Shown here one piece after another: positions 38,198 to 40,380 of a stretch of DNA of 41,951 bases. Position 1 is the stretch's first letter. Every line of letters begins with the position of its first letter. The position numbers and the translations under genes are program-made. Source of the DNA: an uncultured Candidatus Melainabacteria bacterium (GTDB taxonomy: Bacteria; Cyanobacteriota; Vampirovibrionia; Gastranaerophilales; Gastranaerophilaceae); NCBI GenBank assembly GCA_945910425.1, contig CAMDYM010000010.1, positions 1 through 41,951 of the forward strand, given 5' to 3'. The notes beneath the pieces were generated by a model that was not told the DNA's origin, did no database searches, and saw nothing but the letters and a program-made list of their open reading frames with translations.

Positions 38198-38329
38198 TGC
38201 GTAAGCCGGTGTGAAGTGCCGGTGTCGGCTTGCGAGAGCAAGGCGAGCAGGGTACGGAACATTATGTGACCGCCGTTGTGAATGTAGCGAAAGCGAAATG
38301 AACGGACAAATCTTTGATTTGACAGGCGG
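38198..38329 (+). ncRNA. Structured intergenic element A1 (rplC-rplD)
   Basis: Homologous to the element at 40252. Shared: AGCCGGTGTGAAG, GCAGGG, ACCGCCGTT and AGGCGG, in the same order. Stems: 38225-38233 with 38238-38246 (GAGA tetraloop, one G-G mismatch); outer CCGCC 38270-38274 with GGCGG 38325-38329; inner CAAATC 38307-38312 with GATTTG 38316-38321 (loop TTT). AAGCCG (38203-38208) can pair instead with CGGCTT (38226-38231), a possible switch. The rest of the gap to 38422 contains a further hairpin candidate, CCCG...CGGG near 38358-38380. Not coding. Confidence 0.65.
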
Positions 38330-38422
38330 AAAAAGTAAAATCAGAAAAGTAATTAACCCGCTCTTACCATATAAAACGGGAAACCGAAAGGGGTAAGCGG
38401 AAAGCAAAAAGGAAAAATAAAA

Positions 38423-39049
38423 ATGTCAAAAGAAATATTAAGTACAAATGGAGAAAAATTAGGCGAAATTACTTTAGAAAAAAGTGTTTTCGGCGTAGAA
38501 CCTAATTTACATGTAATGCACTTAGCATTGAGAAGACAATTAAATAACGCTCGTCAAGGTAATGCTTGTACAAAAACAAGAGCAGAAGTAGCAGGTGGCG
38601 GAAGAAAACCTTGGAAACAAAAAGGAACAGGACGTGCAAGAGCAGGTTCACTTCGTTCACCATTGTTTGCAGGCGGTGGCGTAATCTTTGGACCAAAACC
38701 AAGAAGCTACGCATTCAATATGCCTCAAAAAGCAAGACAATTAGCTTTGAGATCAGCTTTATCAGCTCGCGAAGCTCAATTGGTTGTAGTTAAAGACTTC
38801 TCAACAATCACAGAACCAAAAACAAAATTAATGGTTAGTGCATTAAAATCATTAAACGTTAGCGGAAAAGTTTTAATCATCGCTAATCCAAAAGCTGATG
38901 AAAACAAAAACTTGGAATTATCTTCAAGAAATATTCCTAGCGTAAAACTTTTATTACCGACTAACTTAAACGTGAAAGATTTATTGGAAGCTGATTTTGT
39001 TGTTATGACTGAATCCGCTGTAAATGAAATTACAGAAAGGTTACAATAA
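38423..39049 (+). CDS. rplD: 50S ribosomal protein L4
   Basis: 208 residues. 'RRQLNNARQGNACTKTRAEV' followed by AGGGRKPWKQKGTGRARAG is the conserved long loop that lines the exit tunnel; FGPKPRSYAF and LNVKDLLEADFVVMTE complete the family pattern. L4 is a primary 23S rRNA binder and, in several bacteria, represses its own operon, so the structured RNA just upstream is a natural place to look for control. AAGGAAAA precedes the ATG. Its TAA overlaps the ATG of rplW (TAATG). Confidence 0.98.
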   Translation: MSKEILSTNGEKLGEITLEKSVFGVEPNLHVMHLALRRQLNNARQGNACTKTRAEVAGGGRKPWKQKGTGRARAGSLRSPLFAGGGVIFGPKPRSYAFNMPQKARQLALRSALSAREAQLVVVKDFSTITEPKTKLMVSALKSLNVSGKVLIIANPKADENKNLELSSRNIPSVKLLLPTNLNVKDLLEADFVVMTESAVNEITERLQ

Positions 39050-39345
39050 TGAGTAAAGAAACAGAAAGATTATATGACGTAATTAAAAAGTCATTAATTA
39101 CAGAAAAATCAGTGGCAGCAACAGAAAATGCACAATATACTTTCGAAGTAAAAAAAGATGCAACAAAAATTGAAATTGCTAAAGCTGTAGAATTAGCTTT
39201 TCCTGGAAGAAAAGTTAAAAAAGTAAGAACAGTTTATATGCCTTCTCACGAAAAAAGAATGGGATATAAATTCGGAAGAACGGATTCAAGTAAGAAAGCT
39301 ATCGTAACAATCGAAGGCGAACCTATTGAATTCATCGGAGTTTAA
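39049..39345 (+). CDS. rplW: 50S ribosomal protein L23
   Basis: 98 residues. DVIKKSLITEKSVAATENAQ and 'YTFEVKKDATKIEIAKAVEL' are the L23 signature; the loop KRMGYKFGRTDSSKKAIV touches the tunnel exit. L23 binds trigger factor and the signal recognition particle at the exit port. It is translationally coupled to rplD by a one-base overlap. Length is usual. Confidence 0.97.
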   Translation: MSKETERLYDVIKKSLITEKSVAATENAQYTFEVKKDATKIEIAKAVELAFPGRKVKKVRTVYMPSHEKRMGYKFGRTDSSKKAIVTIEGEPIEFIGV

Positions 39346-39423
39346 TTTAGAAAACTCCGCGGGGCGAAAAGGCATATGTCCCTAAAAAGTAATACAAAAG
39401 CCAATTAAAGGAGAAAATTAGAA

Positions 39424-40251
39424 ATGGCAACCAGAAAAATTAATCCGACAACACCCGGACAAAGAGGTATGACAAAGAGTGATTATCAAGAAATCACAAC
39501 CTCAAATCCTGAAAAATCGTTGTTAAGATCATTGAAAAAAACAGCCGGAAGAAATAACACAGGTAGAATCACATGTCGTCACAAAGGCGGCGGTGTAAAA
39601 AGATCATACCGTGTAATTGATTTCAAAAGAGATAAATTTGGCGTACCTGCAACAGTAAAAACTATTGAGTACGATCCAAACAGAAACGTAAGAATTTCAT
39701 TATGTTTCTACGCTGACGGTGAAAAAAGATACATTTTAACACCGGAAGGTTTGAACGTAGGCGATGTAATCGTTTCAGGACCTGAAGCACCTGTACAAAC
39801 AGGTAATGCAATGCCTTTAGAATTAATTCCGTTAGGTTCAATTGTTCATAACGTTGAATTAAATCCGGGCAGAGGTGCCGTAATGGTTAGATCAGCAGGT
39901 AACAGCGCTCAAGTTATGGCTAAAGAAGGTAACTATGTAACAATTAAATTACCTTCAGGCGAAATGAGAATGGTAAGAAAAGAATGCATGGCAACAATTG
40001 GTGCTTTAGGCAATTCAGAATTTAAAAACTTATCAATCGGTAAAGCCGGAAGAAAACGTTATATGGGTATCAGACCAACAGTACGTGGTGTAACAATGAA
40101 CCCTTGCGATCACCCTCACGGTGGTGGTGAAGGTAAAACAGGTCCTGGCGGACACCCTAAAACACCTTGGGGTAAACCTGCTCTTGGTTATAAGACCCGT
40201 AAAAAAGGTAAAGCGTCAGACAAACTAATTGTTAGAAGACGTAAGAAGTAG
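39424..40251 (+). CDS. rplB: 50S ribosomal protein L2
   Basis: 275 residues. '[20 protein letters not shown]' at the N-terminus and '[20 protein letters not shown]' near the C-terminus are unmistakable for L2; the latter holds the conserved His needed for peptidyl transferase activity. [18 protein letters not shown] closes the protein. GGAG lies before the ATG. The 78-base gap from rplW holds no strong structure; the gap after it holds element A2. Confidence 0.98.
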
Positions 40252-40380
40252 GCGCGAGCCGGTGTGAAGCCGGAGCCGGGTTGCGATAAGCAATCCGGGC
40301 AGGGCGTAACACTACGATACCGCCGTTATGAACGAAACGGAAGTGAAGTGAATGAAGCAATCTTTGATTGCACAGGCGGT
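40252..40380 (+). ncRNA. Structured intergenic element A2 (rplB-rpsS)
   Basis: Second copy of the element at 38198. Stems: CCGGGTTGC (40276-40284) with GCAATCCGG (40290-40298), loop GATAA; outer ACCGCC (40319-40324) with GGCGGT (40375-40380); inner GCAATC (40357-40362) with GATTGC (40366-40371), loop TTT. Compared with A1, two pairs of the inner stem and at least one of the first stem change in a compensatory way. Four CCGG palindromes allow alternative pairing. No protein is encoded. Confidence 0.65.

Follow-up and report, generated by a model that had tools for sequence, protein, structure and literature searches.

Small dispersed repeats such as those of Rickettsia and Yersinia offer the closest comparison for the element described here, a structured RNA of approximately 130 nucleotides (nt) that occurs twice in the S10 ribosomal-protein operon of an uncultured Candidatus Melainabacteria bacterium (order Gastranaerophilales; GenBank assembly GCA_945910425.1). 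Part of one published account describes the Rickettsia palindromic elements (RPEs) as repeats of approximately 105 to 146 bp found between genes, in frame within conserved genes, and within M1 RNA (RNase P RNA) and transfer-messenger RNA, and the YPAL (RU-2) repeats of Yersinia as approximately 168 bp long and not A+T-rich, with internal inverted repeats, target duplications of variable length (3 to 26 bp), targets near dyad symmetries, and a possible effect on the stability of upstream transcripts (PMC2229807). A passage in a second account adds that ERIC and Correia repeats can alter RNase processing of mRNA (PMC10969869). The window analyzed here is a stretch of 41,951 nt, positions 1 to 41,951 of contig CAMDYM010000010.1. 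Our preferred, and in our judgment probable, reading is that the element represents a new Gastranaerophilales family of small dispersed structured elements that is kept for its RNA fold, and for which we infer both spread and a role in cis on the mRNA.

A repeated two-domain RNA in the S10 operon

The window is one contig (C10) of a genome of 1.76 Mb in 96 contigs. Its S10 operon runs rpsJ, rplC, rplD, rplW, rplB, rpsS, rplV, and rpsC, with L2, L3, L4, and S19 confirmed by Pfam and the other operon genes recognized by sequence. The two copies are homologous non-coding RNAs of two domains each:

38199..38330, plus strand: element copy 1, in the rplC-rplD gap (152.7 bits), starting 3 nt past the rplC stop codon
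38208..38263, plus strand: domain 1 of copy 1 (pairing model), a long hairpin with symmetric internal loops GAA/GGA and GGTG/GCAG
38270..38329, plus strand: domain 2 of copy 1 (pairing model), a three-way junction closed by CCGCC/GGCGG, with arm CAAATC-TTT-GATTTG
40252..40380, plus strand: element copy 2, in the rplB-rpsS gap (140.9 bits), starting 0 nt past the rplB stop codon
40261..40313, plus strand: domain 1 of copy 2 (pairing model)
40320..40379, plus strand: domain 2 of copy 2 (pairing model), with arm GCAATC-TTT-GATTGC

A sequence-only reading of the window had already placed two homologous elements in these gaps, and its observations on their sequence hold. The blocks that it quoted occur in both copies in the same order, the arm CAAATC/GATTTG of one copy is answered by compensatory changes (GCAATC/GATTGC) in the other around the same TTT loop, and the first hairpin covaries as well (U-A versus C-G at the base of the upper stem, C-G versus G-U within it). 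Its broader suggestion, a functional-looking RNA in which pairing is kept over sequence, is borne out by covariation across the family. Domain 1 folds as a long hairpin whose purine-rich internal loops are symmetric, first 3x3 (GAA/GAA type) and then 4x4. In domain 2 the pairing CCGCC/GGCGG closes a three-way junction from which two arms extend, one of them interrupted and the other 6 bp long with a 3-nt loop; the 5' end is unpaired in the model, from which terminal inverted repeats are absent. Standard pairs fill 95.4% of cells in a set of 43 hits (38 distinct), with two-sided changes at 29 of 37 pairs, and 94.5% of cells in a set of 81 hits (80 distinct), with two-sided changes at 35 of 37. 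No shuffle out of 500 attained any of five covariation measures in either set, and in slid structures pairing drops to 30 to 45%. Single-sequence folding of five copies improves only moderately on shuffles (z of -1.6 to -3.1), and the case for structure is therefore one of covariation and not of energy. Alignments A5 to A9 were fitted to the covariance model, which favors its own pairs and G.U; in alignment A3, made with MAFFT and not fitted to the model, the five own-genome copies already have two-sided changes at 11 pairs.

The strand that is conserved appears to be the RNA. Among 199 distinct copies of at least 100 nt, and with an aligner that itself rewards G.U, there are 464 G.U versus 52 A.C cells, with one particular pair read as U.G in 174 copies; excluding six biased pairs leaves 87 versus 47 (p 0.0007). 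This excess therefore points to the sense RNA as the conserved strand, as neither a DNA hairpin nor an antisense RNA would be expected to give such an asymmetry. An alternative pairing, of the 5' AAGCCG with CGGCUU within domain 1, was examined by eye but rejected, since it is not maintained in the rplB and rplK copies.

With copy 2 as query, blastn found six places at E <= 0.001 in the genome it comes from, copy 1 among them with an E of 3e-18: the gaps rplC-rplD, rplB-rpsS, ssb-rpsR, rpsM-rpsK, rpsK-rpsD, and rplK-rplA, each adjoining one or more ribosomal-protein genes (SSB, S18, S4, and L11 identified by Pfam, L1 by sight). A covariance model (R1) built from five of the six, excluding the rpsM-rpsK copy with its insert of about 60 nt, recovered six intact copies and two weak matches on contigs C19 and C34, the latter starting 4 nt past the stop codon of a non-ribosomal gene. 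The window contains no Rfam match at gathering thresholds, and of six matches at E <= 5 in 36740-41951 none overlaps the elements, in agreement with the sequence-only reading, which had recognized no family. The types of mobile RNA that it had raised, HEARO (RF02033)/omega-RNA or a group II intron, find no support in the same search, with no match at gathering threshold in the window and none overlapping the elements up to an E of 5. Among the literature records listed, no title or abstract reports the element; it may stand unnamed in the supplements of large structured-RNA surveys, such as one with thousands of candidates from human microbiomes (PMC8040213).

Distribution and position among genes

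Searching related genomes, as the sequence-only reading had proposed, recovered the element in many gut Gastranaerophilales, and the records that carry it are for the most part metagenome assemblies of this order. Within the genus, 38 of 46 genomes have model hits (E <= 0.001), and a set of 40 genomes has 0 to 21 copies per genome; within the order, 147 of 286 do (E <= 1e-5), the listed positives all belonging to the taxonomic family of the window's genome except G029. In a phylum-wide draw with stricter filters, 75 of 292 genomes were positive (E <= 1e-4), and all 75 fall within the order, a figure to be read with the draw's non-order share not shown. An exact-pattern scan of GTDB contigs found at least 111 stretches with the element, and one viral contig matched the same pattern; of these 112 loci, 47 carry the name of the order, 14 are labeled only Melainabacteria or Cyanobacteriota, 47 (the viral contig included) have no taxonomy, and 4 are labeled as another phylum, which we take to be mislabeled bins. 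There was no match in a phage collection queried with copy 2 or in a plasmid collection queried with copy 1, and none from Rickettsia among the at least 111 GTDB pattern matches listed, Rickettsia genomes not having been searched separately. Copies at six loci lie at assembly breaks (L055, L058, L061, L066, L071, L081), and copy numbers are therefore probably underestimates.

Genomic context was read from fetched loci only, comprising part of the genus hits and the at least 111 GTDB stretches. Of 270 aligned hits, 234 remained after de-duplication, and 36 of these were dropped (shorter than 100 nt or at a contig start) to leave 198 copies with known upstream DNA. The element starts between -7 and +8 nt from the stop codon of a sense open reading frame (ORF) in 107 of the 198, compared with 965 of 20,000 random positions (4.8%), or 519 of 8,000 (6.5%) when random positions were drawn outside ORFs of 100 amino acids; the antisense equivalent at the 3' end of the element occurs in 8 of 191 copies. 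For 94 of these 107 stop-adjacent copies the upstream ORF is 100 codons or longer, and 73 of the 107 start 0 to 4 nt past the stop. Nineteen copies have a stop within the first six bases of the model, and in 9 of them the gene ends at an Ala-stop supplied by the element (GCG in seven, GCA in two). This near-fixed spacing could indicate a signal for translation termination or ribosome recycling, in which stop codon and neighboring hairpin work as a single unit, the first stem being encountered by the stopped ribosome. The spacing is in frame in 60 of the 107, as such a signal might favor, but out of frame in the other 47, and 91 of the 198 copies are away from stop codons altogether, including those in structural RNA genes, so that we regard a termination signal as quite unlikely.

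The genes that precede the element are strongly biased toward translation. By Pfam and NCBIfam, 13 ribosomal proteins are encoded directly upstream (L2, L3, L6, L11, L14, L23, L33, L36, S6, S8, S10, S11, and S13, each Pfam-confirmed on one representative), alongside SSB, GroEL, GroES, EF-P (efp), EF-Ts (tsf), RpoA, MetK, AccA, fructose-bisphosphate aldolase (fba), FliF, and a flagellar protein of FlgE/F/G type. In all, 69 of 106 tabulated rows follow ribosomal-protein genes, but copies at the same site in different species are not independent, and the count of distinct genes is the fairer figure: 13 of 35 to 40 distinct upstream genes are ribosomal (hypergeometric 5e-11 for 40 and 7e-12 for 35, against a background of 54/1700, both the distinct-gene count and the background being our own tally). 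Two proteins labeled L1 by motif, one of them without an NCBIfam hit, were not counted as ribosomal. Two of 30 upstream proteins scanned (L045, L028) had no Pfam or NCBIfam family hit, a protein guessed as SecA proved to have only a SEC-C motif, and the PEP carboxykinase match of L176 scores under its cut-off.

The sequence-only reading had suggested autoregulation specific to the S10 operon, and a ribosomal-protein leader, in which an operon protein binds the element and represses downstream translation, would fit both the strong structural covariation and the position of the intact own-genome copies, six of six adjoining ribosomal-protein genes. Across the family this explanation fails to keep pace with the diversity of sites. 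The same fold stands past 13 different ribosomal-protein genes, past groEL, tsf, efp, rpoA, metK, accA, fba, 23S rRNA, and the RNA of the signal recognition particle (SRP), and within RNase P RNA, and it is missing at the same site in many relatives. Copies at random non-ribosomal sites had been named in advance as telling against an operon-specific role; many non-ribosomal sites are indeed occupied, yet the bias to ribosomal-protein genes remains.

Moreover, in the genomes inspected the stretches just ahead of rplD and rpsD have conserved motifs of their own, in the presence and in the absence of the element alike, for which reason autoregulation by one ribosomal protein is unlikely. Directly ahead of rplD (38357-38400), the rplC-rplD gap contains a second conserved motif, a CCATATAAA..GGGGTA hairpin that a pattern search found in 27 of 30 genus loci irrespective of the element and that is a candidate rplD leader. 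In the rpsK-rpsD gap of the same genome (L008, approximately 864-818, minus strand), a conserved GCGGGGGCTTGCG..TAGTCC..CGCAAACCATAGATGCCCCGC hairpin ahead of rpsD, seen by eye in 30 of 30 genus gaps (L139 without TAGTCC), is a candidate S4 leader. The element itself does not resemble a site at which a single ribosomal protein binds, and we consider an autoregulatory leader highly improbable.

Other ribosomal-protein gaps hold structured sequences too. In an alignment of 10 species of the genus, the rpsJ-rplC gap (37320-37559, 240 nt) shows long stretches with almost no variation, among them a hairpin conserved in full and blocks of AGGTGAAAGTCCT-like and AGTAGCGCTCGCAAG sequence, as well as four pairs with two-sided changes; it has no Rfam match and looks like an unrecognized rplC leader. 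A second structured repeat family, starting ATTTTG[CT]GTA and ending CAAAAT..AAGAC, was seen by eye in ribosomal-protein gaps at L129, L141, L161, and L162, with a weaker resemblance in the rpmJ-rpsM gap of the window's genome (L008, approximately 2263-2140, minus strand).

Copies away from stop codons include several in or beside stable RNA genes. The element lies inside RNase P RNA at L063, L201, L213, and L223, and by coordinate overlap a copy is inside rnpB in 7 of 42 rnpB-positive genus genomes (G005, G015, G045, G048, G049, G050, G057); of 30 rnpB loci fetched, 13 have an empty site of 28 to 29 nt, and the 17 that failed the closing pattern have no insert by eye. At two loci (L034, L075) it stands directly past the 3' end of 23S rRNA and ahead of 5S, at L042 it is 8 nt past SRP RNA, and at L186 and L187 approximately 60 nt past it. 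An 80-nt chimeric copy lies 5 nt past a tRNA (L097), while L052 has a tRNA-end-like sequence just upstream and an Rfam-found tRNA about 200 nt upstream. Copies also occur in frame in leuS at four loci (L076, L077, L079, L205) and twice in one rmlD gene (L067); the reading frame runs uninterrupted through these copies, every time in the same frame, which makes removal by splicing improbable. In the rnpB copies L063, L213, L223, and L053, the 3' tail could pair by eye with the 5' GCxxxAGCC of the element, closing one insulated domain, and the closing sequences at the two ends vary in a partly compensatory way, also by eye. Such pairing between the 5' GCxxxAGCC and a downstream GGxxxxxGC was rejected as a general feature, being visible in the RNase P copies and not in the few others inspected. 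A role as a processive antiterminator was likewise set aside, with copies found both before and after terminator-like sequences.

An alternative hypothesis is that the element moves as RNA, inserting into abundant transcripts at their 3' boundaries and being reverse-transcribed back into DNA. Ribosomal-protein mRNAs and 23S, SRP, and RNase P RNA are all expected to be abundant, the copies in them are in sense and often at 3' edges, and the conserved strand is the RNA strand. However, 31 of 46 genus genomes (drafts) have no reverse transcriptase hit, among them the window's own and G016, G045, and G047 with 11 to 12 copies, and the flank repeats of tandem arrays look like DNA-level events. We regard RNA-level mobility as a very unlikely explanation.

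Dispersal, inheritance, and constraint

The rplC-rplD site is found intact, truncated or decayed, and empty across the fetched genus loci. A mobile RNA, another suggestion of the sequence-only reading, fits in part. Copies at the same site in different genomes share 83% identity (99 pairs), compared with 73% for different sites within one genome (96 pairs) and 73% for unrelated copies (1236 pairs). Taken with the nearest-neighbor comparison given below, these identities suggest that many insertions are old and inherited and that some sites may be filled repeatedly. Clear recent duplication is seen mainly in tandem arrays. There the spacer shares a suffix with the upstream flank (mean 2.19 nt versus 0.68 nt when shuffled, with no value above 1.36 in 2000 shuffles; 36 arrays, including a few that match the pattern loosely), as target duplications would give. 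Flank repeats in arrays measure 0 to 9 nt, with a possible imperfect 4-nt repeat by eye at rnpB and no clear target duplication at single ribosomal-protein sites. By eye, seven copies are chimeras (L016, L035, L089, L097, L099, L187, L231), joining the same domain 1 to another second half (GGCGACGTAGGA..CCACAGGAGC-like), and domain 1 therefore seems to be a module common to several repeat families.

Another explanation is that the element is purely selfish, its fold kept solely for its own mobility and of no function to the host. Across 14 rplC-rplD orthologs chosen as intact, pairwise comparison (91 pairs, gaps excluded) gives 0.168 differences per site in the element, 0.222 in the next 60 nt, and 0.304 at fourfold sites of rplC. 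Of 362 cells with changes on both sides, 317 still pair, the cells not being independent of one another. This comparison favors selection for the fold where the element sits. Gene conversion or repeated insertion could also be a source of the similarity at rplC-rplD. Variable copy number, tandem arrays, truncated copies, in-frame insertions, and the rnpB insertion are all what a selfish repeat would show, and the RPEs and YPAL supply precedents in the part of the account that covers them (PMC2229807). Against this stand the divergence of intact orthologous-site copies, which is roughly half that of fourfold sites and accompanied by paired changes, the integrity of different-site copies within one genome despite an average identity of 73%, and the bias to ribosomal-protein genes. 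We consider a purely selfish repeat somewhat unlikely. The element is nonetheless dispensable, because many relatives lack it.

Putative role and comparison with known repeats

Ribosomal-protein operons are known for high expression, and since the element forms a compact sense fold right behind the stop codon in high-expression operons, a structured intercistronic spacer or 3' end is the best reading of its role. We propose that the family spreads, or once spread, by a mechanism favoring the 3' edges of highly transcribed units, and that past a stop codon the fold may affect its own mRNA in cis, with a structured intercistronic spacer as the likeliest form. Such a spacer might block 3'-to-5' decay or set the point of RNase cleavage, which would give neighboring cistrons of well-expressed operons separate stability.

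Several observations weigh against this proposal. By eye, some copies lie past the U-tracts of terminator-like hairpins, and two antisense copies in L085 (2468-2596 and 3209-3336) lie among T7-like phage tail and internal virion genes (the same phage-gene place occurs in another record, L184); both are a poor fit to a role in mRNA stability. At least 5 of the 107 stops come from short, doubtful ORFs (L053, L197, L219, L238, L257), one of them inside rnpB. With regard to constraint, one-sided changes among the rplC-rplD copies keep pairing in 156 of 344 cells and break it in 188, some pairs of copies are as divergent in the element as at fourfold sites, and the site is empty or decayed in many species. 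With regard to spread, no transposition event was seen, and the empty sites could equally be losses. The nearest neighbor of 54 site-defined copies is a same-site copy from elsewhere in 24 cases, a copy at another site of another genome in 24, and a copy within the same genome in 6, so that inheritance is not clean. Neither Y1 transposase genes (in 21 of 46 genus genomes; p 0.14) nor reverse transcriptases (in 15 of 46; p 0.37) are associated with copy number, and none of the 10 Y1 loci examined, out of 35 Y1 hits, has an element copy nearby. Both were rejected as mobilizer.

We also speculate on a bolder combination of these ideas, which we hold to be unlikely: a mobile RNA that homed to the 3' boundaries of abundant RNAs (ribosomal-protein mRNAs at their stop codons, 23S and SRP RNA at their ends) and to a loop of RNase P RNA could have been domesticated throughout a bacterial family, giving translation-machinery transcripts a shared 3' tail that ties termination at the built-in Ala-stop to the fate of the mRNA. 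Small repeats are usually treated as DNA debris, while this element combines RNA covariation, a near-fixed position at stop codons, a bias to translation genes, and retention at sites across species, and so offers a tractable system for asking whether dispersed repeats become genuine components of operon mRNAs. Its copies also show that a folded insert of approximately 130 nt can be accommodated in rnpB and in the 23S-5S spacer. The element merits annotation in Gastranaerophilales genomes, where several copies lie at contig ends.

Compared with ribosomal-protein leader RNAs, the element is likewise structured, on the sense strand, and located in the gaps of ribosomal-protein operons. Unlike them it is not tied to one protein or operon, is absent from many species, and sits beside apparent leaders. 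It shares with ERIC, REP/BIME, and Correia/NEMIS the form of a small dispersed repeat, but its model has no terminal inverted repeats and its fold is an RNA three-way junction; the co-occurrence with a Y1 (RAYT-type) gene that belongs to the REP/RAYT system was not seen for the present element at the 10 of 35 Y1 loci examined. YPAL/RU-2 differs in lineage, size, and fold, and the part of its description drawn on here does not mention a bias to translation genes (PMC2229807). By description, the RPEs resemble the element in being multi-copy, in their similar size, and in their sites between genes, in ORFs, and in RNA genes including that of RNase P. They are modeled as long stem-loops with terminal inverted repeats, whereas the present element lacks such repeats and has two domains with a three-way junction, and it prefers the position just past stop codons, unlike the RPEs. 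By analogy, the general kind appears to be that of the RPEs and YPAL. Because fold, lineage, the missing terminal inverted repeats, and the stop-codon and ribosomal-protein bias all differ, we place the element as a new family within the small dispersed repeats.

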